Below are positions 6,794 to 37,800 of a stretch of 41,033 nt of DNA, one piece after another. The stretch's first letter is position 1; the number at the start of each line of letters is the position of its first letter. The notes beneath the pieces were generated by a model, which made no database searches, was not told the origin of the DNA, and saw only the letters and a program-made list of their open reading frames with translations. Origin of the DNA: a virus. The stretch spans positions 1 to 41,033 of the IMG/VR virus record IMGVR_UViG_3300021425_000071. The stretch is one strand, 5' to 3'. Both the position numbers and the translations under genes were made by a program.

Positions 6794-9700
6794 CTATGCT
6801 ACTTTCGACGATATGATTAATTCTGATTCCATTGTCGAATTAACGGTTTTTATTGCTTCGGCATCTTTAATTATGATGCCCGGTCCATCTTCTATTACAA
6901 TACTTATTGTTTCGACTTGATCGACGTTCTTGATTGTAATGACTTGATTTACTTTTAATATAGAACCAACACCAACAACAGTAGATGGTCCTGATACTAC
7001 AGATTCATTGGTGCCAGTATCTGCGTCTGAAAGTAAAGTCGAATTGCTCGATACTAAGAAGCCTTCACCTACGATATCACGGGCGACTTTAGATCTAAAG
7101 ATACTGATACCGGATACAAGCGAACCTGTACCTTTTCTCTCGACAATACCATTTGGATAGATTGCACTATTACCAGAGACAAGCGCACCAGATATAACCT
7201 TGACCGTTTTGCTACCTGAACCTGCAAGACTGCTCGAAGCTTGAAGATTAGTGGTAACCTCGATCGTTCTTACACCAGAACCTGATAATGTGTTTGTTTT
7301 CTGTGGTAAGTTAGTGGTTGCAGTTAATCCTCTGTTCGCGGTACCAGATACCGATGTCTCAATTTGTGGTACACCAGAGATTAACTTGACTTCGCGTTCA
7401 ACAGGAGCAGGTGATTGTACAACCGAATCGTTTCGAGGTAATTCTGTTGACGTCGATCTGATTTCTCTAAGTGCAGTACCAGCAACAGATGAATTTGATA
7501 TTGTAATATCGATTGGATCAACAATAACAGTACGCAAGCCAGAAGCATTTAATGTAGATTCGAGTTCAGGTAGATGGCCCGGACCTGCAATAAATCTAAA
7601 TCCTGAACCAGATACTGATGCCGTGGTAGTAAACGTTGCTGATATGTTGAAGTTTTTAGCACCTTCACCACTTACTGACGCAAACGTTGGAGATATACCT
7701 GATACTAATTTGACTTCGCGCTCACCAACGGCTGGCGATACGACTGAAGATGGAGCAGCTTGTACATTAAATACTATCGCTGTCGGTCCTTTCGCGCCCG
7801 AACCAGAAACTTCTGATGCATCAAGTACGAGATCTGCACTTACAGATACAATAATTCGATCAGCATCATTATCAATCGACGATTCACCAATTACTGAACC
7901 TGAACCAGATATTGATCTTAAGCCTTGACCATCTAATGTAGCTACAGGTTGTGATAGCGATATGAACTTAACTTCGCGTATACCAGAACCTGAAGCTTGA
8001 GATATACCTGCAATAAGATCTGCAGACTCCGCTGTCTTTTCAGCTTCACCGACTCCAGATATGCTACTATTATTTTGTGGTAATGTTGTAAATTCGCTGA
8101 CAATTTGGCGAATAGCATCGCCAGTTAATTCGTTTCCGACTGCTGTAAATTGACCCGATCCAGTAATAGTTCTGAGACCTTGACCTGCAAACTCAGCTGA
8201 TGTTGGCGAGATACCTGATACAAGTGTAACTTCACGTTCACCATCAGTTGAAGACACACTACTATTATTTTGAGGCAGCACGCCTGTACCAGTAATATCT
8301 CTATCACCGATACCAGCTAGCGATGCAGTAGGTTGTGGAAGCGAGTCAAATCCGGTGATTATGCGTTCAACAGCACCATCTAATGTCGATGTGGTTTCAA
8401 GTGTATTTGTATCACTTATAATAGTTCTTAAACCAGCACCATCTACATTTGCTGCGGTTGGTGATATACCTGATACAACCTTGACCTCACGCTCAGCTGG
8501 TACAGGAGATTGTACGGATGAATTACCTGATACTATAGAACCAGTACCTAGCGGTCCGCGTGCACCATCACCAAGAAGCGATGAATTATTTTGTGGTAAG
8601 TTACCAGTCGATGTAATAATACGTTCGACCACGCCGTCTAGGTTGGCAGCTGCAACAACGCTACCAGTACCAACAGTTTGTCTTATACCTTCACCATCAA
8701 CTTGAGCGCTTGTTGGTGATATGCCAGATACGACGGTAATTTCTCTCTCGCCGTCAGTTGAAGTCAGGCTGCTATTATTTTGTGGTAATGCGCCACTACC
8801 TTCAATGACTCTTTCAGCGATACCGGCAATTGATGAGTTGGCAGATACTAATGTATTTGTACCTGTCGTAATTATTCTTTCAGCAATACCATCGATTGAT
8901 GTGGTTGTGATCAGTGATCCACTACCCGGTACAGTTCGAACACCATTACTTGATATAGAGCCTGTAGTTGTCAGTGAAATAGGATCACTGACAATCTCTC
9001 TGATACCATCACCGGAGATTGATGAGTTAGCAGAAACAACATTGCCAAATGCAGTCTTTCCTGCTTGTCCATTACCTAAGAGTGAAGACGTTTCAGATTC
9101 AACATTATTTGTGCCAGTAACAACTGTTCGTAAACCTTCACCGCTTATCGATACTTCAACTTGTGGCACACCGGAAATAAGCTTGACTTCGCGCTCAGCC
9201 GGTACTGGTGATTGTACTGATCCTGTTGTTGTGAGTGTAGCAGAACCAACTATGGTACGCGTACCGGTCGAAGAAACACTAGCTTCGGTTGTCAATGTTG
9301 GTGTAGAGACTATCGTTCGTAAACCAGTACCGACTGCAGAATCATCTGTAGCAGTAAGATTACCAGCGACAGTTATAGATCTTTCACCTACACTCGATAT
9401 GCTTGAATTAGCTGAATCTAGTGATCCGACTACAGTTACAGATCTCTCACCTTCGCTGAATATCGAGACGAATGTATTTAACGTCGCAGAACCTGTTACG
9501 ATTCTTTCACCGACGCTCGATATCGAGCTATTTGCTGCTTGAAGTGTAGAGAATGTTGAAGCTGGTCCTGCAAATGCCAGTCCGAAGACACTTGAAACAT
9601 CAGATTCTAAATTGCCCGAAGATGATACAATTTCTCGTTCACCTACACCAGATGTAGATGCAGTGGTAATAAGTGTTGAATCGCTGTCAATCAAGCGTGT

Positions 9701-11146
9701 CGATGTGCCAGTTATAGACGAATTATCAGCTACAACGGATGAGGTACCTGTGATTATTCTTTCACCGACACCGGCTAATTCATTTGTTTCTTGCGGCAGC
9801 GAACCTGAACCAGTGATGCTTCTTTCGCTAACAGAACTAATAGCTGAATTTGCAGATAGCACCGAACCTGATGATATAACAGTTCGTAAGCCAATACCTG
9901 ATAGAGTATTTGTTTCAACCGGCAGCTCGCCTGTGCCAGTAATTAATCTCTCACCGGAACCAGAAAGTGAAGCAGATGTGGTAAGAGAAACCGAACCAGA
10001 GATTTCTCGTTCTGCAATACCTGAGAGTGTATTAGTCTTTTGAGGTAAAGAACTCGTGCCAGTAATCGTACGTTCAGCAATACCTGCAAGTGTTACTTCA
10101 GGAGTTGGTAAATGGCCGGGACCAGATATAGTTCTTTCAGCTATGGAAGAAAGTGCAGCCGTTGTAATAAGTGTACCGGTACCAACTCTTTCTATTATAC
10201 CAGAACTTGTAGCGCTGCTATTTGCTAATGATAATGAGCCGCTGGCCGTAATAACACGCTCACCAACACCAGCCAGTGTGTTAGTCTTTTGTGGTAGATT
10301 GCCACTTCCGGAAGCGCTTTTCTCACCTAAACCTGATAGGCTGTGATCGCCTTGTTGAATATTACTAGATGAGGTTATTATTCTTTCGCCGGCACCAGCA
10401 ATGCTGTTATTGGCTGATACAATTGATCCATTTCCTACTAGACCGTGTTGACCAGTGCCTGATACCGTATTGGTTTTTTGTGGTAGCTGACCGACAGCAA
10501 CCGAAGCTCGTTCGCCGATACCAGCCAAGGTGTTGGTTTTCTGTGGTAATGAACCTGCACCTGACGCACCTCTTTCACCAACACCAACAAGCTGATTGGT
10601 CTCCTGTGGCAGAGATCCAGTACCTGTAATTGATCTTTTTACTGAACTCGATATTGATGAGTTTGCAGATACTAGATTTCCAGCGCCAACTTTAGTAACT
10701 CTGCGTTCACCGACACCAACAACTTGATTCGTCTCCTGTGGCATCGAACCAGAACCGACTACAGTTCTTTCACCGGTGCTCGCAATAAAGTTGTTAGATT
10801 TTGTGACGGAACCAGAACCACTGATAGTTCTTTCGCCAACACTAGAGATTGAACTGTTTGCAGATACAATAGAACCTACAGCAATTCTATTTGTTTTACC
10901 AGAACCAGATAGAGAAACGGTGACCTGTGGTACACCTGATAATACTTTAACTTCACGTTCACCATCAGCATTTGATAGACTAGAATTTGCTGATACGAGT
11001 GAGCCAGTAGCTGGAGCTTTACGTTCACCGACGCCTGATAATGAAGATGCGCCAATACCAGCTACACCTTCCAGCTCTTCGGTTTTTCTTACATAGCCAA
11101 CCGCTACATAATCGTCAACATGGTAGATTGTGCGTACTAATGCCAT
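6794..11146 (-). CDS. Giant repetitive virion protein (21-residue repeats), probable fibre or whisker
   Basis: A 1450-residue protein I cannot assign to a named family. After a unique head of about 25 residues (MALVRTIYHVDDYVAVGYVR) it is almost entirely tandem repeats of 21 residues, typified by GVGERxITGSGSLPQETNTLA. Variants carry SANSSIS, TTASVS or LPQNNSSL. At least eight units contain a longer variant, EREVKLVSGISPT or EREVKLISGVPQ. A non-repetitive tail of about 70 residues (ITIKNVDQVETISIVIEDGPG and on) ends the protein. Composition is Ser/Thr/Gly/Val-rich with no Cys and almost no aromatics, suggesting an extended beta fibre. It sits immediately upstream of gp13, where T4 keeps its short tail fibre and fibritin genes, so a neck whisker or tail fibre is plausible. 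The start has AGAGGTT about 5-6 bases upstream. Confidence 0.75.
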   Translation of the reverse strand: MALVRTIYHVDDYVAVGYVRKTEELEGVAGIGASSLSGVGERKAPATGSLVSANSSLSNADGEREVKVLSGVPQVTVSLSGSGKTNRIAVGSIVSANSSISSVGERTISGSGSVTKSNNFIASTGERTVVGSGSMPQETNQVVGVGERRVTKVGAGNLVSANSSISSSVKRSITGTGSLPQETNQLVGVGERGASGAGSLPQKTNTLAGIGERASVAVGQLPQKTNTVSGTGQHGLVGNGSIVSANNSIAGAGERIITSSSNIQQGDHSLSGLGEKSASGSGNLPQKTNTLAGVGERVITASGSLSLANSSATSSGIIERVGTGTLITTAALSSIAERTISGPGHLPTPEVTLAGIAERTITGTSSLPQKTNTLSGIAEREISGSVSLTTSASLSGSGERLITGTGELPVETNTLSGIGLRTVISSGSVLSANSAISSVSERSITGSGSLPQETNELAGVGERIITGTSSVVADNSSITGTSTRLIDSDSTLITTASTSGVGEREIVSSSGNLESDVSSVFGLAFAGPASTFSTLQAANSSISSVGERIVTGSATLNTFVSIFSEGERSVTVVGSLDSANSSISSVGERSITVAGNLTATDDSAVGTGLRTIVSTPTLTTEASVSSTGTRTIVGSATLTTTGSVQSPVPAEREVKLISGVPQVEVSISGEGLRTVVTGTNNVESETSSLLGNGQAGKTAFGNVVSANSSISGDGIREIVSDPISLTTTGSISSNGVRTVPGSGSLITTTSIDGIAERIITTGTNTLVSANSSIAGIAERVIEGSGALPQNNSSLTSTDGEREITVVSGISPTSAQVDGEGIRQTVGTGSVVAAANLDGVVERIITSTGNLPQNNSSLLGDGARGPLGTGSIVSGNSSVQSPVPAEREVKVVSGISPTAANVDGAGLRTIISDTNTLETTSTLDGAVERIITGFDSLPQPTASLAGIGDRDITGTGVLPQNNSSVSSTDGEREVTLVSGISPTSAEFAGQGLRTITGSGQFTAVGNELTGDAIRQIVSEFTTLPQNNSSISGVGEAEKTAESADLIAGISQASGSGIREVKFISLSQPVATLDGQGLRSISGSGSVIGESSIDNDADRIIVSVSADLVLDASEVSGSGAKGPTAIVFNVQAAPSSVVSPAVGEREVKLVSGISPTFASVSGEGAKNFNISATFTTTASVSGSGFRFIAGPGHLPELESTLNASGLRTVIVDPIDITISNSSVAGTALREIRSTSTELPRNDSVVQSPAPVEREVKLISGVPQIETSVSGTANRGLTATTNLPQKTNTLSGSGVRTIEVTTNLQASSSLAGSGSKTVKVISGALVSGNSAIYPNGIVERKGTGSLVSGISIFRSKVARDIVGEGFLVSSNSTLLSDADTGTNESVVSGPSTVVGVGSILKVNQVITIKNVDQVETISIVIEDGPGIIIKDAEAIKTVNSTMESELIISSKVA
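7022..11068 (-). repeat. Coding tandem repeat, about 63-base unit (21 residues)
   Basis: The repeat tract corresponds roughly to residues 27-1375 of the giant repetitive protein. Units keep a 21-residue phase over long stretches; for example GVGERGASGAGSLPQKTNTLA is followed by GIGERASVAVGQLPQKTNTVS. The DNA copies are diverged, so the tract is conserved as protein rather than as perfect satellite DNA. Boundaries are approximate. Confidence 0.8.
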
Positions 11147-17536: not shown

Positions 17537-17884
17537 TTACTCTCCTACAGAAGTCGCACTAGGTTTTACGAATATTTTTCCATCTAGTACTTTTGTTATA
17601 TTAACATCTCCATTGTCATACATTAACACATCATATACATAACGTAAGCTAGTATCTAATGTTGATGTAATAGCAGATGATAACGACAGTTGTATAGAAC
17701 CAGCTGCAGCGTCGATAACGGTGACTGTAAAATCAGTAGAATCGGTATCGTTATATCTTTTTTTGAATGATGCTGCGAAGTATTTTGTAGTCAAATCTAA
17801 AGCTGCATCATTACTATCAAGCAAGTTCAGCTTGATAGTAAAATCGGTATTTTGATCTATGGTTAGATCTTCAGTGCGCGCCAT
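17537..17884 (-). CDS. Small Ig-like phage baseplate/virion protein (BppU N-terminal-like)
   Basis: A 115-residue protein beginning ARTEDLTIDQNTDFTIKLNL, with SIQLSLSSAITSTLD and RYVYDVLMYDNGDVNITKVLDG toward the end. This order (a 'DQGxDF' start, a T-rich Ig-like core, then RYVYDVE..V.rVLeG) is that of the small beta-sandwich seen as the N-terminal domain of baseplate upper proteins and as stand-alone phage virion proteins. It probably links fibre components to the baseplate. The ribosome site AGGGT lies about 10 bases before the ATG. A TATAAATA box 24 bases upstream separates it from the oxygenase cassette. Confidence 0.72.
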   Translation of the reverse strand: MARTEDLTIDQNTDFTIKLNLLDSNDAALDLTTKYFAASFKKRYNDTDSTDFTVTVIDAAAGSIQLSLSSAITSTLDTSLRYVYDVLMYDNGDVNITKVLDGKIFVKPSATSVGE

Positions 17885-17916: not shown

Positions 17917-18537
17917 CTAAGAGCGAGCTGCGCTCGAACAGAAATTAGCCGCGAGTGAAATTCTAGGCTCGACTGAATTATTTATATCAACTCGATGTGA
18001 CAGATGTCCTGTAAAAAAGTATGCTTCCCGTTCTTGTGGTGCTTTGCCCGCGCCCATTCTAATACGAGGATTATCATCTCCTAAAAATTCAGATCCACCT
18101 TTTTCGAGTTCGTTTCTCAATATTGTTCTAGACAATTGATCATTTGGTTCAAATTCAATATGGGCTGAAGGTTCAGGCGCCTGTAAATAATAACAACTAG
18201 ATAGCACGGAGCCGGCGTGATTATGATTTACGTTATAATCACCGGAATTATTTACATTAATCCATATACCAGCGCTGACCATATTCTTCATATCAAAGCT
18301 ATAATACTCATATAAAATTTGATGGGCCGTGGCATGCAGTCTATCATTCAAATAATCTATAGCTTCACACTCATCGCGTTGAACATGATATTGCCACCCA
18401 CCTTTATTAGAAATGACTACACCTTTCTCTTCTCTACTCATAAGAAAGTTTATATAGTCGTGTATTTCTTGATGATTTATATCGTCATATACTTCTTTAA
18501 AAATACTTTCAATGAAAATGTCTTCTACTTCTATCAT
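17917..18537 (-). CDS. 2OG-Fe(II) oxygenase-like protein (HxH...H...R type)
   Basis: A 206-residue protein with the signature of small 2-oxoglutarate/Fe(II)-dependent oxygenases of the TIGR02466 type. It has AGIWINVNNSGDYNVNHNHA with His105 and His107, then SVLSSCYYLQAPEPSAHIEF, then a distal AYFFTGHLSHRV with His181, and EPRISLAANF with Arg192 as the likely 2-oxoglutarate-binding Arg. These enzymes couple decarboxylation of 2-oxoglutarate to hydroxylation of a substrate, and phage members have unknown substrates. It is the last gene of a five-gene overlapping cassette lying between fibre genes, and its start overlaps the preceding gene's stop. Modification of a virion protein is an inference from context. 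Confidence 0.8.
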   Translation of the reverse strand: MIEVEDIFIESIFKEVYDDINHQEIHDYINFLMSREEKGVVISNKGGWQYHVQRDECEAIDYLNDRLHATAHQILYEYYSFDMKNMVSAGIWINVNNSGDYNVNHNHAGSVLSSCYYLQAPEPSAHIEFEPNDQLSRTILRNELEKGGSEFLGDDNPRIRMGAGKAPQEREAYFFTGHLSHRVDINNSVEPRISLAANFCSSAARS

Positions 18538-19349
18538 AATGTTGGATTATAACTCGACTGAGGTCCTTTGTATATTAGAGGAAAATTAATATGCATTCTT
18601 TCTTCCACACCTTTTTCATAAAACATTTTTCTTTCAGGTATGTATAGTAAGTCGCCTGGGTTTACTTCTATGGTTTCTTCGACTTCAAGATTATCAAAAA
18701 ATATTACTCGTTTTTCTTTTGTCCAGTCAAATGGTAGATTCTTATCAACTAAACCACTGACACGATTTTTGTATATGACAAACTCTGATGTGCCTACTGT
18801 TTGTAAGTAAAATGAATTATAATTTTCACCTCGAGGATGACCAGATATTTCATTCTCTTTTATGAAAGTCGCATGCGCAGCACCTTTTTCTGGTGTTACA
18901 AACGCCGGCCACACCCCAAAGATATCTACATCGAGTGTAAAGGTGTCTAATAAAGCATTACTCATATCACGCGATAGATTATTATATTTTTCATAATTAT
19001 AAATTCTAAGCGTGTTCTTATCTTTTAAATAATCTAATGGACGTTTCCTACCCATCCCTTCCATTCTTTGTCGCGACTTATAATTCTGCACGCCATTCTC
19101 ATCTATGTCTTTCTTTTTATTTTTATAAGCAAGATCATTAAATGATATCTTTAGTGACGACGCTGTATCACCCCATTCCATAATAGGCAATACATGACAA
19201 TCATAATAATTACATTCACCGAAACATTCATAAAAATACATATGATTTAAAAATTGGTCAGGAAATGAAGTAAAGTTTTTAATTAGATACGGTCTATCAT
19301 TAAAGCTTGTAGCAATTTTAATTTCTTCTAGAGCTTCTGTGTTTATCAT
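18534..19349 (-). CDS. Cupin/JmjC-like protein, possibly lacking metal ligands
   Basis: A 271-residue protein whose C-terminal half resembles the cupin-like/JmjC hydroxylase fold. ISGHPRGENYNSFYLQTVGT (168-187) mirrors the 'H-x-D...fllQ..G' strand. VNPGDLLYIPERKMFYEKGV (229-248) mirrors the 'pGDllYiPxxxxH' strand, and RMHINFPL follows. In typical family members a His lies after the IP turn. Here that stretch reads ERKMFYE, and the proximal motif has Arg where Asp is expected, so the metal site may be altered or the protein non-catalytic. The N-terminal half (Tyr- and Cys-containing, YECFGECNYYDCH) is unassigned. It is coupled by 4-base overlaps to both neighbours in the oxygenase cassette. 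The fold is a moderate-confidence reading. Confidence 0.5.
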   Translation of the reverse strand: MINTEALEEIKIATSFNDRPYLIKNFTSFPDQFLNHMYFYECFGECNYYDCHVLPIMEWGDTASSLKISFNDLAYKNKKKDIDENGVQNYKSRQRMEGMGRKRPLDYLKDKNTLRIYNYEKYNNLSRDMSNALLDTFTLDVDIFGVWPAFVTPEKGAAHATFIKENEISGHPRGENYNSFYLQTVGTSEFVIYKNRVSGLVDKNLPFDWTKEKRVIFFDNLEVEETIEVNPGDLLYIPERKMFYEKGVEERMHINFPLIYKGPQSSYNPTL

Positions 19350-20125
19350 TTATCCCACCGATCAATCGTAAATCTGTTTCTTCTATGTACCATTTTTCTA
19401 TAAAATTGTTTAGCATTAGACAGCGCACCAGTATAGAATTTTGTTTCACCTAAACTATCGTGTGTATAGTATGCCTTCCAATCTCTTTTAATCATAGGTA
19501 TCATATGTAAAATAGGAGTACCCGGTTTAATTGTAAACTTACCTTCTTTTTTACATGAGAATATAAAATTCATTGTAGAAAATCCATTCTCATAATCAAC
19601 TATGCCGGGATATACATAAAAGTCTTCTGAAATATTACTATGATATACAGGAGGCTGAACCATTAGCGAACAGCCTTTATTAATTATTGCCCATGGCGTA
19701 CTAATATGCATTGGTGTAGGATTGCTGTCTCGATGCTCGGCGATACCATGGGCTATTTTTTCTGACATGCCAGATGCACTTTTTATCCATTGCTCGTCGA
19801 TGTGTTTATTGTGATCAAGCTTATATGGACATTCTTGATTAACAGGGGTTGGCCATTCACCTTTATCTCGATGGCCATAATACATCATGGTATTTTTTCC
19901 ATCACAATGCACTTCAATTTCACACCAAGCTAGCATTAACCAGCCTTGATTTTTATAGTCGTACATGCCGGGACAATCTACAAGATGTGGTCGCCCATAT
20001 TTTTCTCTTTGAAAACTTTCATACGGCGCTTTAAATTTATTTGCTGCTACAATCGGCCATGTTCCCCAAACAGAACCCCACATATCATTAAAGACGAACT
20101 CTTCATTATGATTCTTTTTCCACAT
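19346..20125 (-). CDS. DUF6065-like protein (divergent paralogue)
   Basis: A 259-residue protein related to the 236-residue neighbour upstream. Both share the C-terminal order W-x-I..., a GIVD/GVVD motif, an N-F segment, and a final 'GTPxxxxIPxxKR' motif. Here these are STPWAIINKGCSLMVQPPVY, YPGIVDYENGFSTMNFIF, and IKPGTPILHMIPMIKRDWKA. The N-terminal part is different, with several Trp and His residues (WGSVWGTWPIVAANKF; MMYYGHRDKGEWPTP). From memory the family corresponds to DUF6065, often found in marine T4-like phages with unknown function. Its start shares one base with the previous stop and its end overlaps the cupin-like gene by 4 bases. Confidence 0.65.
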   Translation of the reverse strand: MWKKNHNEEFVFNDMWGSVWGTWPIVAANKFKAPYESFQREKYGRPHLVDCPGMYDYKNQGWLMLAWCEIEVHCDGKNTMMYYGHRDKGEWPTPVNQECPYKLDHNKHIDEQWIKSASGMSEKIAHGIAEHRDSNPTPMHISTPWAIINKGCSLMVQPPVYHSNISEDFYVYPGIVDYENGFSTMNFIFSCKKEGKFTIKPGTPILHMIPMIKRDWKAYYTHDSLGETKFYTGALSNAKQFYRKMVHRRNRFTIDRWDK

Positions 20126-20835
20126 TATCTAACTTCTCTTAATTCTTGAGTGTATACGCCCGTTCTTGTTCCTTGCGCCTTTTCAAGTATATCTCTTTTT
20201 CTTTCTTCGCGATCTGTAGCTGTTCTGATTTTAGCATCCATCTTATTTCTTTTGAATGGAATAACTTGCACTAATGGCGTACCTGCTTTTAAAGTTATAT
20301 CTGCATTTGGCGTATTCCAAACAGCTGGAAAATTAATAGTATTCATATATGTGTCGGTATCAACAACACCACTCAAACATGTAAAATCAGATTGCACTGA
20401 ATTTGGCATTGCTTGAAATAAACATGACCAGCCGGGTTTAGTTTTGATTCGCCAATGATTAATAAACTTCAACGGATCTTGTTTAAAGCCCGGCCATTTT
20501 TCAGATGCAATTTGATCCCACGCGTGGCCTTGTACGGCTTGTATTTGATTGCCTTCTCTTCCTGCAGCCTGAATTATAGAACAATCGTCATTTGTAATTA
20601 CATGTACATCACTTTGTAATGGAATCACCCAACCAAGAGTCATAGCATCTAGCATAGGTAAACATTTTTTAGCCGTAAATAATGGGAACCCACCTTGATC
20701 ACGAATATTTTTTGTAACAGGTATTTTCTTAAACCATTCTGGCACATGCTTTTGCATTCTAGATGGTTCAATGAGTGCGCCATATAAATGCTCTGATGTA
20801 TAAAACTCTAGACCGGGATCATTATTAAAAATCAT
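20125..20835 (-). CDS. DUF6065-like protein
   Basis: A 236-residue protein of the family I know as DUF6065 (name from memory). Diagnostic segments are MQKHVPEWFKKIPV near residue 27-40, TAKKCLPMLDAMTLGWVIPL at about 54-73, WRIKTKPGWSCLFQAMPN, LSGVVDTDTYMNTINFPAVW, and KAGTPLVQVIPFKRNKMDAK. The family has no established biochemical role. Its strand-rich C-terminal half with conserved G-V-V-D-T-D and final I-P-F-K-R resembles a cupin-type sandwich, but I see no His/Asp metal triad. It follows the 186-residue oxygenase by a 4-base ATGA overlap and precedes its own divergent paralogue, so the cassette includes a tandem duplication. Confidence 0.72.
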   Translation of the reverse strand: MIFNNDPGLEFYTSEHLYGALIEPSRMQKHVPEWFKKIPVTKNIRDQGGFPLFTAKKCLPMLDAMTLGWVIPLQSDVHVITNDDCSIIQAAGREGNQIQAVQGHAWDQIASEKWPGFKQDPLKFINHWRIKTKPGWSCLFQAMPNSVQSDFTCLSGVVDTDTYMNTINFPAVWNTPNADITLKAGTPLVQVIPFKRNKMDAKIRTATDREERKRDILEKAQGTRTGVYTQELREVR

Positions 20836-21392
20836 AGTTGTGATTTACCCCATGCATTGTTCAATAGAAATCTTGCTTCGCCACTCGTCACTGGTTCTAT
20901 TCCCCATGTAACATGTGAATCAAAGAATACCGTTTGGCCGGCCTTTAAATTTATAATTTGCGGTTGCAGAGTTCCATCGATATCAATTTTTAATTCGCCA
21001 CCTTCATATTCGTTATTATTTGATAGACAGCTAAGCATCGTAATCTTACGATCTTGTTTTCTATAGCCAGATAATCGTATTTCACGATGAGGTTTGATAT
21101 GATCTTGAGCAGTTGAAGTAAGTCGAGCGTACATGAATTTTTCAAGAGATTCTATATCATACAAAAAAGCTTCATAATTTATTGTAGAGATAAGAGAATG
21201 AAAGGGATCATACACAATTTTATTTGTATTCATGTCTGATTCTAGATATCCTAAATCACATGCAAATTCGCTTTCTGGATCTCTAGGTTGAAAACCGATA
21301 ATCTTCTCAAAGAATCGTATTTTATCTACGGTGTCAACAAGATTATCGACAATTACGAAACGAGAAAGTTCCGTGGATGGAGCTAATAACAT
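20832..21392 (-). CDS. 2OG-Fe(II) oxygenase-like protein (prolyl-hydroxylase/PiuC type)
   Basis: A 186-residue protein with a compact 2-oxoglutarate/Fe(II) oxygenase double-stranded helix. The proximal motif is His102-Arg-Glu104 within IKPHREIRLSG (HxE in place of the usual HxD), followed by RKITMLSCLSNNNEYEGGEL with the hallmark 'YeGGeL'. The distal strand is LKAGQTVFFDSHVTWGIEPV with His160, and GEARFLLNNAW carries Arg174. This is the pattern of prolyl-4-hydroxylase-like and PiuC-like enzymes. It is the first gene of the five-gene cassette, with a good ribosome site (GAGGTT, 6-7 bases before ATG) and a TATAAATA box 39 bases upstream. It directly follows the gene for the Tyr/Pro-repeat fibre. 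Confidence 0.8.
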   Translation of the reverse strand: MLLAPSTELSRFVIVDNLVDTVDKIRFFEKIIGFQPRDPESEFACDLGYLESDMNTNKIVYDPFHSLISTINYEAFLYDIESLEKFMYARLTSTAQDHIKPHREIRLSGYRKQDRKITMLSCLSNNNEYEGGELKIDIDGTLQPQIINLKAGQTVFFDSHVTWGIEPVTSGEARFLLNNAWGKSQL

Positions 21393-21414: not shown

Positions 21415-24336
21415 TTAACCAGTGTACTTTATATTTATAAACCCTCTATTAGCTGCTGTATTGTTACCTGCTGGCGAGTTACCTACGGAAACATTAAGTT
21501 GTGTTCCATCTACACCATCGACTTTAGTTGGATCAAATATCTTTCTGTTTGAAGTCTGAGCTGTGCGAATTACATAGTTTGTGATATTTGGTTGTGCACC
21601 GGCAGCAGTAAACGATACAGAATAACCGTCTGCTGTTACCCATGAAACAACACTATCGGTTCCAGCAGTACCAGCTGTAACTCTATCCGGATAGTTAGTT
21701 ATACGAGATGGATATTGTGTATATTGTATAGTAGAATATGCATTCTCAAAGAATGTACGCGATGGATATTGTGTATATGCTACTGTTGTATATGCATTCT
21801 CGAAAGTATTTCTTGCAGGATATATCGTAGATAATGTATATGAATCTTTAAAGAATGATCTTGTTGGATACGAGGTATTGATCTGAGTTGTATATGCAGC
21901 ATTAAATCTCTGTGGAAATGCCGTATTTACCTGTGTATTATAAGCAGCTTTATTAAATCTGGTTGGATATTGTGTGTATGCTACAGTAGAATAAGCAGCT
22001 TTATTAAATCTTGTTGGGTATGAGGTATTGACCTGTGTAGTATAGGCATTCTTTTGTACATCAGCACCGTATGCAGTATTAACCTGAGTTGTGTATGCAT
22101 TTTTCTGCACACGCTGAGGATATGAAGTATTGACCTGAGTTGTATACGCTGACTTTTGGAATCGCTGCGGATAAGCAGTGTTTACCTGAGTGGTGTATGC
22201 TCCTTTTGCAAATCTCTGTGGATACTGTGTATATTGTACAGTATTATAAGCAGCTTTACTATATCGAATAGGATATGAAGTATTAACCTGAGTAGTATAA
22301 GCATTCTTTTGTACATCAGCTGGATATTGCGTATTTTGTACAGTAGAATAAGCAGCTTTTTGGAACCGTTCTGGGTAGTTAGTTGTTTGTGATGTGTTAT
22401 ACGCAGCTTTATTAAACCGTGCAGGATAGTTAGTGGTAGCTGATGTGTTATACGCGGCTTTATTAAACCGTGCAGGATAAGCCGTATTAACCTGAGTTGT
22501 ATACGCACTTTTATTAAATCGAGCAGGATAAGCAGTGTTTACCTGAGTAGTATAAGCTGCTTTCTCTTGGTCGGCAGTATATGCGGTATTGACTACTGTA
22601 GAATAAGCATTCTTTGCTACATCAGCACCATATGCTGTTGTTTGTACAGTAGAATAAGCATTCTTTGCTACGGCTGCTGGATAAGCAGTATTGACTACTG
22701 TAGAATAAGCATTCTTTGCTACATCAGCACCATATGCGGTATTGGTTACTGTAGAATATGCAGCCTTATTAAACCGTGCAGGATAATCTGTATTTACTGC
22801 TAAATTATAACTACCTTTATTAAATCTTGCTGGATACTGTGTGGTGACAGTCGCATTATATGCTGATTTTTGCCAACGCGTTGGTCCTGAAACAAATCCT
22901 GTCAGAACATAAGTTTGGTTACTCGAACTTAGTTGATATTGCTGGAAAGAGTAAGCAGCTTTTTGAGTACGAGCTGGATATGACGTTACGACAGATGTCG
23001 AATATGAAAATTTCTGAACTTCAGAGTTGTAGAACAAATATGTTACAGTAGAATAAGCATTCTTTTGAACATCAGCAGGATAGTTAGTAATGGCTGATGT
23101 GTTATACGCAGCTTTATTAAACCGTGCAGGATAGTTAGTGGTAGCTGATGTGTTATACGCGGCTTTATTAAACCGTGCAGGATAATTAGTGGTGACTGAT
23201 GTATTGTATGCAGCCTTGTTAAACCGCGCGGGATAGTTAGTGGTGGACGATGTATTGTATGCAGCCTTAGTAAATCGTGCAGGATATTGTGTATATGCTA
23301 CGGTGTTATATGCATTCTTTGCTACATCAGCTGGATATTGTGTATACTGCACAGTATTATATGCATTCTTTTCCACGTCAGCGCCGTATGCAGTATTAGT
23401 TACCGTAGAATAAGCATTCTTTGCTACATCAGCACCATATGCGGTATTGGTTACTGTAGAATATGCTGCTTTTGATGTACGAGCAGGATAGTTAGTGATG
23501 GTCGATGTAGTATATGCGGCCTTAGAATATCGAATAGGATATTGCGTGTATGCTACAGTCGTATAAGCATTCTTTTGAACGTCGGCACCATAAGCCGTAT
23601 TGACCTGTGTATTATATGCGGCTTTCTGAGTACGAGCAGGATACTGCGTATATGCTACAGTCGTATAAGCATTTTTTTGGTTTCGCTGTGGATACTGCGT
23701 ATATGCTACAGTAGTATAAGCTGACTTAGCGTATCTAATTGGATATTGCGTATACTGTACGGTATTATAAGCGGCTTTATTAAATCTGGTTGGATATTGT
23801 GTATATGCTACAGTAGAATAAGCATTCTTTTGAACGTCAGCAGGATAAGCAGTGTTTACCTGAGTGGTATAGGCATTCTTCGCAACGTCAGCAGGATATG
23901 CAGTGAATTGTACAGTATTATATGCATTCTTTTGCACACGCGATGGATACTGCGTATATGCTACAGTAGTATAAGCATTCTCAAAAGTATTCCTAGCTGG
24001 ATATATTGTAGATAACGTATATGAATCTTTAAAGAATGTTCTTGTTGGATACGAGGTATTGATCTGAGTTGTATATACATCCTTAAAGAAAGTACGCGAA
24101 GGATACGAAGTAATGTTTGACGTTGTATAAGCGTTCTTTGTAATTGAATATGCAGGATCTAGTATTGGCGCGCTAGCGGCTCCACCCCTTGCAGTAATTT
24201 CAATTACTTGCTTTCCATAAGGCACAGAAATAGGAGTTGCATCAGTTGTACCTGACGCAGCATCTTTGAATCGTGTTTCATCAAATGTTTGTGCCCAGGT
24301 TTTATCAATAAAACCCTTACCGCCACCTACTGGCAT
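21415..24336 (-). CDS. Tyr/Pro/Lys-rich 17-residue repeat fibre protein
   Basis: A 973-residue protein with no family I can name. Residues 1-68 are unique (MPVGGGKGFIDKTWAQTFDE at the start) and 882-973 form a different C-terminal domain. Between them lie about 47 tandem units of 17 residues, typified by AYTTQVNTAYPADVQKN or AYNTSATTNYPARFNKA. Nearly every unit keeps Tyr at positions 2 and 10, Pro or Gly at 11 and Lys at 16, and Arg (or Asp) at 13. A few units are 16 or 18 long, and one is expanded to 31 (about unit 24, with SSSNQTYVLTGFV). No Cys is present in the array. An extended fibre or adhesin is likely. The ribosome site AAAGGAA lies 8 bases before ATG. The gene immediately precedes the oxygenase cassette. 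Confidence 0.8.
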   Translation of the reverse strand: MPVGGGKGFIDKTWAQTFDETRFKDAASGTTDATPISVPYGKQVIEITARGGAASAPILDPAYSITKNAYTTSNITSYPSRTFFKDVYTTQINTSYPTRTFFKDSYTLSTIYPARNTFENAYTTVAYTQYPSRVQKNAYNTVQFTAYPADVAKNAYTTQVNTAYPADVQKNAYSTVAYTQYPTRFNKAAYNTVQYTQYPIRYAKSAYTTVAYTQYPQRNQKNAYTTVAYTQYPARTQKAAYNTQVNTAYGADVQKNAYTTVAYTQYPIRYSKAAYTTSTITNYPARTSKAAYSTVTNTAYGADVAKNAYSTVTNTAYGADVEKNAYNTVQYTQYPADVAKNAYNTVAYTQYPARFTKAAYNTSSTTNYPARFNKAAYNTSVTTNYPARFNKAAYNTSATTNYPARFNKAAYNTSAITNYPADVQKNAYSTVTYLFYNSEVQKFSYSTSVVTSYPARTQKAAYSFQQYQLSSSNQTYVLTGFVSGPTRWQKSAYNATVTTQYPARFNKGSYNLAVNTDYPARFNKAAYSTVTNTAYGADVAKNAYSTVVNTAYPAAVAKNAYSTVQTTAYGADVAKNAYSTVVNTAYTADQEKAAYTTQVNTAYPARFNKSAYTTQVNTAYPARFNKAAYNTSATTNYPARFNKAAYNTSQTTNYPERFQKAAYSTVQNTQYPADVQKNAYTTQVNTSYPIRYSKAAYNTVQYTQYPQRFAKGAYTTQVNTAYPQRFQKSAYTTQVNTSYPQRVQKNAYTTQVNTAYGADVQKNAYTTQVNTSYPTRFNKAAYSTVAYTQYPTRFNKAAYNTQVNTAFPQRFNAAYTTQINTSYPTRSFFKDSYTLSTIYPARNTFENAYTTVAYTQYPSRTFFENAYSTIQYTQYPSRITNYPDRVTAGTAGTDSVVSWVTADGYSVSFTAAGAQPNITNYVIRTAQTSNRKIFDPTKVDGVDGTQLNVSVGNSPAGNNTAANRGFINIKYTG
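21432..21439 (-). promoter_or_regulatory. Late promoter box (TATAAATA) for the oxygenase cassette
   Basis: An exact minus-strand box sits within the last codons of the repeat-fibre gene, 39 bases before the first oxygenase ATG. The downstream leader contains the GAGGTT ribosome site. Together with the box at 17909-17916 it brackets the cassette as an independently expressed late unit. Confidence 0.65.
21694..24132 (-). repeat. Coding tandem array, 51-base unit, about 47 copies
   Basis: This is the DNA of the 17-residue repeat array. Some units are synonymously diverged and others nearly identical. The longest perfect duplication I found is 91 bases, at 22390-22480 and 23095-23185, spanning nearly two units. 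The two ends of the array carry the same unusual three-unit block (with FFKDSYTLSTIYPARNTFEN), which is absent from the middle. Confidence 0.85.
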
Positions 24337-24353
24337 ACTACATTTCCTTTATA

Positions 24354-25508
24354 TTATTGTGCCCAACCAGCATTGCGGATTGAAAGCGAACCATAAATTT
24401 TGCCATTAATCACAATAAAATTATATATGTCGTAACCTGCTGATGCTGGTGGCTCAACGCTTTCAGCCCAATATATTGCATCATCTTCTCCAGAGCCCGG
24501 CCATGTTGCTTCTCTAGCAGTTCCATTATTATTTATAACCAATGTGAATGCTGATGTTCCATTTGTCGGTAAGTTGGTAAAGTCTACTGAATATGCTCCT
24601 GATGGAGTAAATTCAACAACTGATCCTACGTTACAATCAATTGTAACAGCGGTACCGCCCGGAGCGGTTGAAGTAGTTTCAATAAAATAATCTTCGACAG
24701 TAAGCCGTCGAGCCGTAATATCTGTCGATACATCTAAAGCGCCTGATACGAATACACCACTATTATTTGCTACAAATCTCTGGGATCCGTTAGTAACAAT
24801 ACGGGCCGAATCATTAGAATTAAATTGGAAATAAGTATTATTATCGCCGACATGACTAATACTATTTGCTACAGTGATATCAGTAACATTGATTAGATTA
24901 TTGTTGTAAAAATTGGCGTTGGTCGTCGAAAAATTATAATTATCGGCACCACCTAGAACAAATTTAATATTGTCTGAGCTTGTATTTGACCAAGTACCCG
25001 AACCAGTATAGTCAATTTGACCTAATACGATTGCACTTCCACCGGATGCTTTCTCACCAGCGGCTTCTACAACATGTGTATATACGAAGTTAGCCCCAAT
25101 TGAGCCGTTTGGTTTACTAGAATTAGATTGAAACTCTGAAGCAGCGGCTCCGCCGGTTACATCTCTAACTGCAATACCTGAGCCGGCTTGAATTGATAGC
25201 ACAGTAGTATTGGCTCGAGCAACATTTACGTTACCAGCAGTAATATCAATTTGATTTGTCGTAAATCCGATCGTGGTATCGGCGTCGCCGATGTGAGTAA
25301 TATTAGTGCCAACGTATATGCCACCTGTAACTTGTGCATTGCCATTTACATCAAGCGGATATGATGGTGTTGAATCGTTGATGCCAACACGATCATTGAC
25401 ACTATCTACAAAAAGAGTATCTGAATCAACGGCAAGATTTGCCCCCACGGTCATTTGACCTGTGACTTCTAATCCATCTAACGCATCAAATTTCTGTGAA
25501 GTTGCCAT
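24354..25508 (-). CDS. Tail-fibre-like virion protein with WAESVEPP C-terminal domain
   Basis: A 384-residue fibre-type protein. It starts with ATSQKFDALDGLEVTGQMTV and the sequence DRVGINDSTPSYPLDVNGNA, the 'vgIntttPsypLdVnG' phrase typical of phage fibre shafts. It repeats the phrase SHVGDNNTYFQFNSND/THIGDADTTIGFTTNQ. The C-terminal domain (about 280-384) has GTAVTIDCNVGSVVEFTPSG, IYWAESVEPPAS and GSLSIRNAGWAQ, paralogous to the end of the 212-residue protein at 11792. No enzyme motif is visible. An exact TATAAATA at 24530-24537 lies inside this gene, 193 bases before the repeat-fibre start. It could be an internal late promoter or chance. Confidence 0.8.
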   Translation of the reverse strand: MATSQKFDALDGLEVTGQMTVGANLAVDSDTLFVDSVNDRVGINDSTPSYPLDVNGNAQVTGGIYVGTNITHIGDADTTIGFTTNQIDITAGNVNVARANTTVLSIQAGSGIAVRDVTGGAAASEFQSNSSKPNGSIGANFVYTHVVEAAGEKASGGSAIVLGQIDYTGSGTWSNTSSDNIKFVLGGADNYNFSTTNANFYNNNLINVTDITVANSISHVGDNNTYFQFNSNDSARIVTNGSQRFVANNSGVFVSGALDVSTDITARRLTVEDYFIETTSTAPGGTAVTIDCNVGSVVEFTPSGAYSVDFTNLPTNGTSAFTLVINNNGTAREATWPGSGEDDAIYWAESVEPPASAGYDIYNFIVINGKIYGSLSIRNAGWAQ

Positions 25509-25518
25509 CTATCTTCTC

Positions 25519-25926
25519 TTATAGTTTAAAAATACCTGAACTGCTCCATGTAATATCTATATTAGAACCGTCAGGCGTAATAGGAAAACCAGTGATATTG
25601 GTGTCTAACCAACAAACCAGCCGCGATGTAGTTGTGACTCCGGTATCTATCCATATCAATAGTGCTTCAGACTCTGCACCTGTAACGCTTGAAAAAACAA
25701 GATCGTCTGCATTTAAAACACCATCTACGAGTGTTTTATTCGCAAGAGTTACAGTTGAAAGAATACCACCAGTAGAATTTAAGTCGCTATAGAATTCGTC
25801 AGTACTATCAAATAATGTGATATCTGAATTTACAAGAGACACTTTCACCGTTTCTGTCAACAAGTTAGTATTTGTTGCAGTCGTCAATATTTCTTCTTTG
25901 TATTTATCGTATATTGCGTTTGCCAT
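25519..25926 (-). CDS. Conserved small phage virion protein, function unknown
   Basis: A 135-residue protein beginning MANAIYDKYKEEILTTATN, with TVTLANKTLVDGVLNADDLV in the middle and SRLVCWLDTNITGFPITPDG followed by NIDITWSSSGIFKL at the end. This order is one I recognise from many phage structural regions ('MANALYDkgRe.fl...v.G.f.A.dv.f..v.g..seai.iy...G...sr.ia.id..tglPvtpnG..i.i.w....ifkL'). It is a small beta protein presumed virion-associated. It is linked to the upstream giant fibre by a one-base overlap and to the next gene by a 10-base gap. Confidence 0.72.
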   Translation of the reverse strand: MANAIYDKYKEEILTTATNTNLLTETVKVSLVNSDITLFDSTDEFYSDLNSTGGILSTVTLANKTLVDGVLNADDLVFSSVTGAESEALLIWIDTGVTTTSRLVCWLDTNITGFPITPDGSNIDITWSSSGIFKL

Positions 25927-34809: not shown

Positions 34810-37800
34810 TTACGTTGAACGTCCTAAGCGGAGTCGATTAAATGTAAACAACTTGTTGTGTACTACTAAATTGTTTGCTGTGTAAGTATTGTCATTGTCT
34901 ACTTTGAAGTTGTAAACTTTATCAGTAGAATTATACTTATCAATATTTACCACAATCTCAGAAGCAACTAAACTTTCAGGACCTGTGATAGAAACAATTT
35001 CATCACCTATTTCTAATTGACCAACATTTAGATCTGGGTGATGCTCATTTGATGTTACAGGGTTAACTGCTTTCCAACCTTCTGTAGTAAGTATTGGGTG
35101 ATAATCTGTAAGATGCAATCCATTGACATTAGCCATAGGTCGAAGATCTTCAGCAATATCATATACTTCATCAACAGTATTATGTACACCTTCTGCACCC
35201 ATCACTATATCGCCGACTTCAATATCTTCTACATTCTTGTAGCTATAGTCGTGCAACATAATTTTTGTTCCAGCTTGGAAACAACCAGAGCCAGCGCCAG
35301 TAAAGTTGTTTGGAGTGCTTACTGGTGGTGCAGCTGCTGGAGTTACGGGCACTGTTGGAACGATAGGCGGCGGAGTTATCTTAATGAAATCCAGTCGCTT
35401 ATCCGGAGATTGACCTGCGTGTATCGTATCATTCGGCCTTACCCATACGTCAGCCTCAACTGGCTCAGTCCTAATGATAGGCTCGGATGGCGCAGGTGGC
35501 GGCAACACTGGTGGCTGCGGTACCGGTGGCTTGACTGGTGGTTTCGGTGGAGGTACTGGCGCTGGAGTTGGATCGTTATCTTGAATTGTTATTAAGCAAG
35601 AACTTGAACCAACGGTAGCATTAGTTGCTCCAGTTAGATTTAGTCTAAACGTTTCAGCACTCTCATCTATTGTATCATCAGTAATTGGTATAGAAATATT
35701 AGTAGTAAGCTGACCGGCAGTAATAGTTGCTGTACCTGACGTCGGCGTAAAGTCGCTGCCAGATGTAGCACCACCACTTGTTGTTTGATAGTTAATAGTA
35801 ACGTTACTAGCAGAAATGCCCGAAAGAGTAATTGGTACGTTTAGTGTACCGCCTCCTTCGTTGATCGCACGAGATTTTGGTATCGATACAATTGGTGTAC
35901 TAGTTGTATCAGTGATTGAAACAACACCAACTGAATCTGTAATAGTACCTTGCGAAGCACTACTTATCGTAACGTTGAATGTTTGTGTACCTTCGTTTGA
36001 AACTCCATCGGCCAAAGCTTGCACTGAAATTTTTCCAGTTTGCTGGCCTTTTGGAATTCTTAGAGTTCCAGATTCGGCGACATAATCATTGCCGGCAGTA
36101 GCTGTGCCACCACCCATAGAATAATTAACCGTAGTATCTGAACGATTCTTTCTACTCAAGTAAACTTCAACTTCACCTGTTTCACCTTCTCTAATAACCG
36201 CATCACTAATTGTAATATTAGCAGGCGGTGGCGGCAACACCGGTGGTTTCGGTGGAGGTAATACAGGTGGCTCAGGTATAACAATTACCGGTGGTCGCAC
36301 TGGTGGGTGCACTACAACAGGATCTTTTGGTGGCGTTGGTTCTGGTATAATTACGCACCCATCATCGTTATCTGGTGGATCCATTGGTCCGCACACAACA
36401 GGTGGTGGACGAATAATTACTGGTGGCGGTAAAATTACACAAACCGGTGGTTTTACTGGTGGCGGTGGAGAATATCTGCATACTTCGACGTTATTAACAT
36501 CGGACTCAGAAACTCTAATATCACACTTACCAGTAGTTGAAGAACGCTTACCAGTGTAAACATACGTCGTCAAAGTTTTATCTGGAGTTTTACTACAAAC
36601 AGTCTTAGCCACTGTACCAGATGCAGGACACGCCGGCGTAACTGGTGGTTGTGGTGGTTCTGGCTCTGGTTGTGGTGGGTCTGGCTGTGGAGCCGGAGGA
36701 CCGCCGGGAGATCCAATTACTGGTGGTGGCAATATTGGCGGTAATTTAATAATTGGTTCAACATAACCACACTCTTTTGAGTTTCTTACGGTATCTTTTG
36801 TTGATCCATAATTGCCGTCTGCTCGATAAACGATCAAGTCTGTACCACTACACTTCTTATATAAGAATGTACCACGAGGCTTAGCTGGTGGTCGAACATT
36901 TACTTCGTTGGCTCCAGTATCAAATATCGGATCGGCACTTGTAATAGCCGGATATGTAATTTGGAAATTAAATACTGCATCACCCTTTAATGCTCTAACG
37001 GTGATATATGTGCCTTGTGTGTGATTATATGCAGCAGTTGCCTGATATGCACCAGTAAAGGTGTTATATGTAATAGAACCAGAATCAGTTGTAAATGTCA
37101 GCTGACCTGCTGAAGCCTTTGGAAGCGCCCATGGGTTAATATCTCTGCTGTATACAATATTCTTACTATTTTTTACAGGATAATTTTTTCGATACAACTC
37201 GCCATATTTGTTTGGAGTGATATCAGTAGGCGTCGATGAAGCTGAGCTCCACAATACAGTACCACTCTCAAATCCAGCTGTTGGCGGTGTCTTTGATTGA
37301 ATAATTTCAAAGCCAACTTTACCAGTTGGTACAAAAAATCTAACAAATATTAGTCTTTGCTTATTATCGCTAAATGTTGGTGCAACTACTGTTGCTTCTT
37401 CCCATACATTTTGCAATTGTGAATATGGAGCAGTAGAATCACCAATGCTCTTCATATTTCTGTTATTTGTAAATTTATCGCGATATCTAATTTTAGGCAA
37501 CTGAGGCTCAGGAACATATGGACCATAAGTGGCATACGCTTGATTCACAATCGTCTTACGCTTATATGGGAACTTAGCCTGTCCGCCATTTGCATAGATC
37601 TGAGAATTTTTATCTAACTTATATCGTAATGTACTGGTGCTTTTTGATGGCTGTAGTACATATTCGTAAATAGATGCATCGTACTCTGGCGAAGATAGAT
37701 TCGATAGATTAAAGTCTTCGAAATTATCAACAAAGAAACCAAACTTATATCTTTCCAATGATGAATCAATTGAACTCGGCATCTTGCGGTTCTTCACTGA

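Follow-up and report, generated by a model that had tools for sequence, protein, structure and literature searches.

A candidate fibre or adhesin with a changing Tyr/Pro repeat in an uncultured T4-superfamily phage

What does a phage do with a protein built from dozens of short Tyr- and Pro-containing units held between conserved ends, and why is it encoded beside homologues of 2-oxoglutarate (2OG) oxygenases? Both questions are raised by IMGVR_UViG_3300021425_000071, an IMG/VR record of a bacterial virus from an environmental sample, whose 41,033 bases are the whole stretch of DNA analysed here (the window). Within a fibre cluster, the window encodes a repeat protein consisting of an N-terminal cap (N cap), an array of 47 units and a C-terminal cap (C cap) (Table 1). 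Relatives of this protein in other uncultured viruses keep the caps and the neighbouring oxygenase genes while the repeat changes, which suggests a fibre or adhesin that evolves quickly and that the virus may modify chemically.

The repeat unit and its maintenance

A first-pass annotation of the window had described about 47 consecutive 17-residue units at 21694-24132, with Tyr at positions 2 and 10, Pro at 11, Lys at 16 and Arg or Asp at 13, and this description is borne out. Cutting the array at its AY-type anchor, with the end of the last unit fixed by script at 17 residues, gives 47 units spanning 21691-24132, of which 39 have exactly 17 residues, four have 18, three have 16 and one has 31. 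Core identity at a lag of 17 is 0.53, compared with 0.10 after shuffling (1000 shuffles, standard deviation 0.01, maximum 0.145). Among the 39 exact units, to which all per-position counts refer, Tyr10 is invariant, as is Tyr2 by construction (the anchor requires it), while Thr8 and Lys16 each occur in 38 and Thr4 in 37. Position 13 is Arg in 25 units and Asp in 12, and position 11 is Pro in 31 and Gly in six (37/39 together), so that Pro11 alternates with Gly, the latter restricted to units with Asp13 and Asn17 (6/6). Two kinds of unit are prominent, a Pro-Arg kind with a terminal Ala (16/39) and a Gly/Pro-Asp kind with a terminal Asn (11/39).

Codon use was compared as the probability that two units share a codon, with nine other open reading frames (ORFs) of the window as background. 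This probability is near background for Ala1 (0.32 versus 0.32), Lys (0.49 versus 0.51), Arg (0.22 versus 0.28), Pro (0.42 versus 0.38) and Thr8 (0.28 versus 0.33), and above background for Tyr (0.77-0.81 versus 0.58), Thr4 (0.42 versus 0.33) and Ala12 (0.40 versus 0.32). Because residues are fixed at positions where codons vary, selection acts on the protein, and the motif looks to be maintained by it, codon variety being close to background at the majority of conserved positions, though not at Tyr.

Constant caps and changing repeats in uncultured viruses

Searching metagenomic viral contigs uncovered relatives with constant caps and variable repeats on 12 IMG/VR contigs of uncultured viruses, including a near twin of the window (99.93% identity over 14,919 bases). 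Protein, pattern and cap searches found 10 of these, and an oxygenase search found the same 10 plus two more. Taking contigs below 60% oxygenase identity as separate lineages gives seven, the window's and six further, between which oxygenase identity is 30-58%. Contigs L012-L014 are near-identical, L034, L036 and L037 are closely related, with oxygenases 79-92% identical, and L046 resembles L047. A DNA pattern scan of the viral contigs returned 17 stretches, seven of them on contigs already known; of the 10 that were read, four belong to the repeat family and six do not. One of these six, contig L019, carries, in the region of 7509-7564 on the minus strand, an unrelated 105-codon open frame of TYPAR/TYAAR-like five-residue repeats.

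The N cap, of the type MP-GGGK-F-D-TWA...PYG-Q-IEI-ARGG, is common to all relatives (contig L047 starts inside it), with 41-73% identity between lineages over 60 residues. The C cap is also present in all of them and closes with GFINIKY or a variant, of which PFVNVKY in L015 departs furthest. Between these constant ends the middle is hypervariable. Repeat units have 15 and 14 residues in L012 and mostly 16-17 in L015, L033, L034, L036 and L037, and in L046 and L047 the middle is a different motif of about 18 residues, of the PYSFATTGTKPVTSVF type. Lys content is 5.1% for the window, 4% in L046 and L047, 3.3% in the L012 group and no higher than 1.4% in six others. What stays constant across the family is Tyr and Pro, with Pro next to Tyr in all lineages.

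The protein had been proposed as a possible new class of phage adhesin or fibre shaft, and in keeping with this no described fibre family was matched. By tblastn against 50,697 phage records, the whole repeat protein gave no match (E ≤ 1e-5) and the C-terminal 200 residues, the L012 caps and the L015 relative gave no convincing match (E ≤ 1); the low-complexity filter was on, and the array itself is poorly tested by these searches. Pfam gave no family for the window protein at E ≤ 0.001, three family members reached no curated Pfam cut-off at E ≤ 1, and no match was found among PDB sequences at E ≤ 1. Weak whole-protein matches to PHROGs, with no single stretch passing, were obtained for the window protein (phrog_6071, E 8.1e-5) and for the L012 relative (phrog_33395, 3.1e-6; phrog_38087, 2.2e-4), and one stretch of the C cap matches phrog_38538 (E 0.01). 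We judge these PHROG matches, all to families of unassigned function, to be compositional. Literature searches, judged by titles and abstract openings and covering few subscription papers or preprints, found no hydroxylated phage fibre or Tyr/Pro-repeat family. These fibre-cluster proteins, alike at both ends but not in the Tyr/Pro repeat between them, appear to form a family that has not been described before. The family adds to a known kind, that of phage fibres and adhesins whose middle varies, and offers a natural case of modular fibre evolution.

The first-pass annotation had also drawn an analogy with mussel foot proteins. Mussel foot proteins are decapeptide repeats rich in Tyr, Lys, Pro and Thr. 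The window protein resembles them in this composition, and Tyr and Pro are indeed constant in the family, but Lys is not conserved and the period is 17 rather than ten, leaving the likeness an analogy. For homology, no sequence match was found in Pfam or PDB, libraries whose content of mussel foot proteins was not checked.

Possible roles: adhesin, passive shaft or enzyme substrate

The window encodes terminase, head-closure/neck and tail-sheath-stabilizer proteins besides the fibre cluster and is, judged by such genes, a T4-superfamily phage. Its terminase matches 2,533 phage records, and the 12 listed include Sinorhizobium phages phiN3, phiM12, phiM7 and phiM19 (57-59%), a Rhizobium phage (55%), a Pseudoalteromonas phage (52%), Pelagibacter phage Mosig (49%) and two Methylophilales phages Melnitz (49%). 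An alphaproteobacterial host would be a guess from these listed matches. Genome contigs searched with the caps and the oxygenase yielded neither a confirmed relative nor, with it, a cellular host. In the window and 11 contigs (L047 beginning inside the repeat protein) the genes keep one order, beginning with the large fibre protein, phrog_644 protein, sericin-like protein, repeat protein and 2OG-FeII_Oxy_3 protein, followed by one or two phrog_7084 proteins, the JmjC-like protein, the 2OG-FeII_Oxy_5 protein and the fibre-assembly-like protein. Some have additional small genes. The repeat gene thus sits within a T4-superfamily tail-fibre cluster, as the earlier fibre interpretation would have it, and this position suggests that its product is a virion protein.

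With modest confidence, we read the protein as an adhesin or shaft from the fibre cluster of a T4-superfamily phage, in which constant caps enclose a fast-changing Tyr-Pro repeat array. Attachment and closure would fall to the caps, and the array would be a long run of short beta-strand-plus-loop units built on Tyr-Pro, acting as an elongated shaft or as a multivalent aromatic surface that contacts the receptor. Unit sequence, loop length and copy number would turn over fast, like the variable segments of glycine-rich tail adhesins, and, more speculatively, the neighbouring 2OG oxygenase homologues could hydroxylate the array in some lineages.

The beta-strand-plus-turn unit is suggested by the way spacings shift between relatives. 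The distance from AY to YP is seven residues in 42 of 44 cases in the window and five in 39 of 41 in L012, five being the commonest value in all seven relatives tabulated, L012 included. The loop after YPxR/D is mostly four residues in the window (35/41), three or four in L012 and five or six in most others, so that the commonest loop length across the proteins tabulated is 3, 4, 5 or 6. A spacing that shifts by two and a loop that shifts by one are the pattern expected of a beta-strand with alternating faces and a flexible turn.

Glycine-rich tail adhesins offer one comparison for a hypervariable middle between constant ends. They are reported, in haloarchaeal hafunaviruses too, as host-range determinants with hypervariable segments (PMC8651126). 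The repeat family shares such segments with the gp38-type glycine-rich adhesins of the T4 superfamily but is built on Tyr/Pro, and the window protein contains 2.9% Gly compared with 38% and 35% in the glycine-rich proteins of cyanophages S-CAM22 and P-SSM7. In these two cyanophages the glycine-rich protein is encoded right after a sericin-like gene, and the annotated genes after it encode short hypothetical proteins. A comparable slot may therefore hold another repeat-rich protein there, although the underlying sericin-like match covers only 16-21% of the sericin-like protein of the window. By eye, end motifs such as GGFINIKYT in L046 and GGSGIVVVQF in Mosig suggested that the two caps might together make up one glycine-rich fibre domain, split in half, but hhalign does not support this.

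Several results weigh against an adhesin or shaft of this kind. The hhalign comparison of the caps with three glycine-rich proteins gave a probability of 0.1% (Neff about 2.2 and 1.6), a weak test with few sequences. AlphaFold returned no confident structure, with mean pLDDT of 32.6 (residues 1-320 of the window protein) and 38.7 (L033 protein); structure prediction of units had been recommended as monomer and trimer, and the monomer runs proved uninformative. The models also disagree, placing one strand per unit in the window and two in L033. Stretches of the L033 model at about 30-90 and 425-490 reach block means of at least 70 and are strand-rich. Fold searches used this model only, at a confidence too low for the results to carry meaning, and found no fold match (lowest Foldseek E value 3.1 against PDB and 0.16 against BFVD; with VIA-align 2, Z of at least 2 in two of 53 chains, both 2.2). 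The repeat pattern is degenerate in L035, which has five YPxR. Within the window array, Tyr, Ala12 and Thr4 show less codon variety than background and units that adjoin resemble each other more (0.64 versus about 0.55), which together make some recent local duplication likely. Finally, synteny extends over the entire cluster, whose genes may simply be inherited together, so that an enzyme gene lying next to the repeat gene does not count as independent evidence.

A trimeric, purely structural shaft of the triple beta-spiral type, turning at Pro/Gly 11 and making no receptor contact through the array, is a possible if doubtful alternative. In triple beta-spiral shafts such as the adenovirus fibre and reovirus sigma1, Pro or Gly occupies a fixed turn position. 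The array would resemble these shafts in its short beta unit, in Pro or Gly at a predicted turn (37/39 units) and in a loop that varies while strand parity stays constant, and the low-confidence window model has one strand per 17-residue unit. Its unit of 17 residues, however, is very Tyr-rich, no match to these shafts was found in structure or sequence, the models are under useful confidence, with two strands per unit in L033, and unit sequence changes faster than expected for a passive shaft, L046 having a different motif altogether. Collagen-like Gly-X-Y triplets are likewise absent, given the period and the low Gly content.

A further, rather unlikely alternative makes the array an enzyme substrate, with phage 2OG oxygenases hydroxylating repeat Pro (or Tyr, Lys or Arg) and so maturing or stiffening the fibre. 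To our knowledge, the substrates of marine phage 2OG-Fe(II) oxygenases are mostly unknown. Genes for such enzymes are frequent in marine phages, and the repeat protein, which adjoins one to three of them on every contig found, is a concrete candidate substrate. The 2OG-FeII_Oxy_3 gene lies directly downstream of the repeat gene in all 12 cases (the window and 11 contigs, the twelfth contig being the window's twin and outside this count), with gaps of -1 to 43 nt, and two of the 12 contigs were recovered by the oxygenase search alone. JmjC-like and 2OG-FeII_Oxy_5 genes are present in 11 of the 12 examined, the L033 contig ending too early. The JmjC-like profile matches YxbC and a putative asparaginyl hydroxylase (1.5e-5), FIH (about 1e-4), NO66 (0.002) and, weakly, JMJD5 (0.06), and the 2OG-FeII_Oxy_5 profile matches two uncharacterised solved proteins. 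The closest solved relatives of the 2OG-FeII_Oxy_3 family profile are PiuC hydroxylases (E 2.9e-10), which counts against hydroxylation of the array. PiuC is tied to iron-siderophore uptake.

The state of the active sites also points in both directions. Metal ligands of 2OG-FeII_Oxy_3 are intact in all eight distinct relatives aligned. The window copy still passes the Pfam cut-off (33 versus 27 bits), but it has H-x-E, carries Trp where the distal His would be, has its Arg displaced and is probably inactive; lacking the distal His, it leaves the window without an intact HxD...H...R enzyme directly beside the repeat. In the JmjC-like protein, HxD...H is intact in L015, L034, L036, L037 and L046, which represent three out of six lineages in which the protein was observed, whereas the ligands are lost in the window and L012 and the distal His is missing in L035. 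The HxH...H...R of 2OG-FeII_Oxy_5, with HxH instead of the usual HxD, is invariant in all seven sequences aligned, the window's included. Pro next to Tyr in every lineage would suit a substrate, and the window, whose 2OG-FeII_Oxy_3 is degenerate, has the array lowest in Pro (4.9% versus 8.7-12.5% in other lineages), although this is a single case.

Distribution argues against a dedicated pairing of enzyme and repeat. Relatives of the L012 2OG-FeII_Oxy_3 occur in 278 of the 50,697 phage records, mostly cyanophages, a collection in which no relative of the repeat protein was found. The window 2OG-FeII_Oxy_3 has a single match, in Marine virus AG-345-E15, and no repeat protein is encoded upstream of it (one such neighbourhood opened). 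In Pelagibacter phage Mosig four genes annotated as 2OG-Fe(II) oxygenase lie near a glycine-rich protein instead. This part of Mosig (L039, 7381-11236 and 11707-13257) also has 'ferrochelatase' and 'endonuclease V' labels among the annotated oxygenases, which may be mis-annotations because PHROGs of those names also match 2OG-FeII_Oxy_3 proteins. A published description of Melnitz lists a 2OG-Fe oxygenase among replication genes (PMC9004378). How viruses use prolyl 4-hydroxylase "remains cryptic" according to another article, in which the PBCV-1 enzyme of chloroviruses is cited as acting on viral peptides (PMC9301287). By that account, PBCV-1 resembles the present case as a virus with both a hydroxylase-like enzyme and Pro-containing repeats, whereas here the virus is a phage, the relation of enzyme to substrate is putative and the window enzyme looks degenerate. 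Cluster synteny could, moreover, be plain descent.

A bolder scenario, which we put forward as improbable, is that the Tyr/Pro-repeat fibre of these phages is matured by up to three hydroxylases of their own, repeat and enzymes co-evolving, and that the window phage lost two of the enzymes and shifted to a Lys-rich, Pro-poor repeat. The weakest alternative, a functionless and recently duplicated low-complexity tract, would explain the likeness of neighbouring units and the less varied Tyr, Ala12 and Thr4 codons but is already disfavoured and most improbable, given near-background synonymous codon use at the conserved Lys16, Arg13, Ala1, Pro11 and Thr8 and a Tyr-Pro array kept between caps despite the divergence of lineages in the oxygenase.

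Features of the fibre cluster and its surroundings

Table 1. Positions of the repeat protein, its parts and neighbouring genes in the window, and of a small ORF pair in related contigs.
Feature	Position	Strand	Remarks
Repeat protein, 973 aa	21415-24336	minus	N cap, 47-unit array, C cap
N-terminal cap, residues 1-68	24133-24336	minus	conserved; 41-73% identity between lineages, first 60 residues
Array, 47 units, residues 69-882	21691-24132	minus	mostly 17 residues
C-terminal cap, last 91 residues	21415-21690	minus	conserved; end RGFINIKYTG
Large protein, 1962 aa	25926-31814	minus	tail-fibre/virion PHROG matches
phrog_644 protein	25519-25926	minus	several homologues annotated minor tail subunit/minor tail protein
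'Sericin-like' protein	24354-25508	minus	directly upstream of repeat gene; phrog_5906, tail fibre phrog_18345
2OG-Fe(II) oxygenase homologue (2OG-FeII_Oxy_3)	20832-21392	minus	PiuC-like by family profile
DUF6065/phrog_7084 protein	20125-20835	minus	no assigned function
Second phrog_7084 protein	19346-20125	minus	
JmjC/FIH-like cupin	18534-19349	minus	
2OG-FeII_Oxy_5 protein	17917-18537	minus	
Small tail-fibre-assembly-like protein	17537-17884	minus	phrog_1084/phrog_3304
Small ORF pair	L015 12855-13632; L034 11936-12704; L035 11943-12717; L036 8997-9774; L037 5892-6660		

Rfam gave 0 matches, and a promoter and terminator scan found nothing above shuffles. DUF6065/phrog_7084 is matched by 51 phage records, 49 of them haloarchaeal tailed viruses, with 33-38% identity in the 25 matches listed. 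The expectation that it marks similar modules elsewhere found no support in the gene tables of the haloarchaeal viruses HSTV-2 and HF1 (two of the 51 opened), which name no adjacent fibre or oxygenase gene. Between 2OG-FeII_Oxy_3 and the second phrog_7084 gene, five of the related contigs carry an overlapping pair of small membrane- or lipoprotein-like ORFs (MPYLIL...GGAWYYYTDTQ and a second frame; Table 1), which from their likeness we take to be a candidate spanin pair and which is absent from the corresponding place in the window.

Elsewhere in the window, a 1450-residue ORF in the structural region (6794-11146, minus strand) has no PHROG match at E ≤ 0.001, and a 2057-residue DUF4815/Calx-beta protein (34810-40983, minus strand) ends in about 160 residues that are Hint/intein-like (CFQAGT...VVHN, then Lys). 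Inspection by eye shows a similar HHN tail on the ORFs truncated at the locus start in L015 (3-338) and L035 (1-465) but not at the corresponding ends in L033 and L034. In L033, the protein upstream of '929' (2-1795) has a Pro/Arg/Tyr-rich tail, TSPPSRTTPNN...PTRPTRRTPPP, and thus a further Pro-rich segment lies in the cluster.

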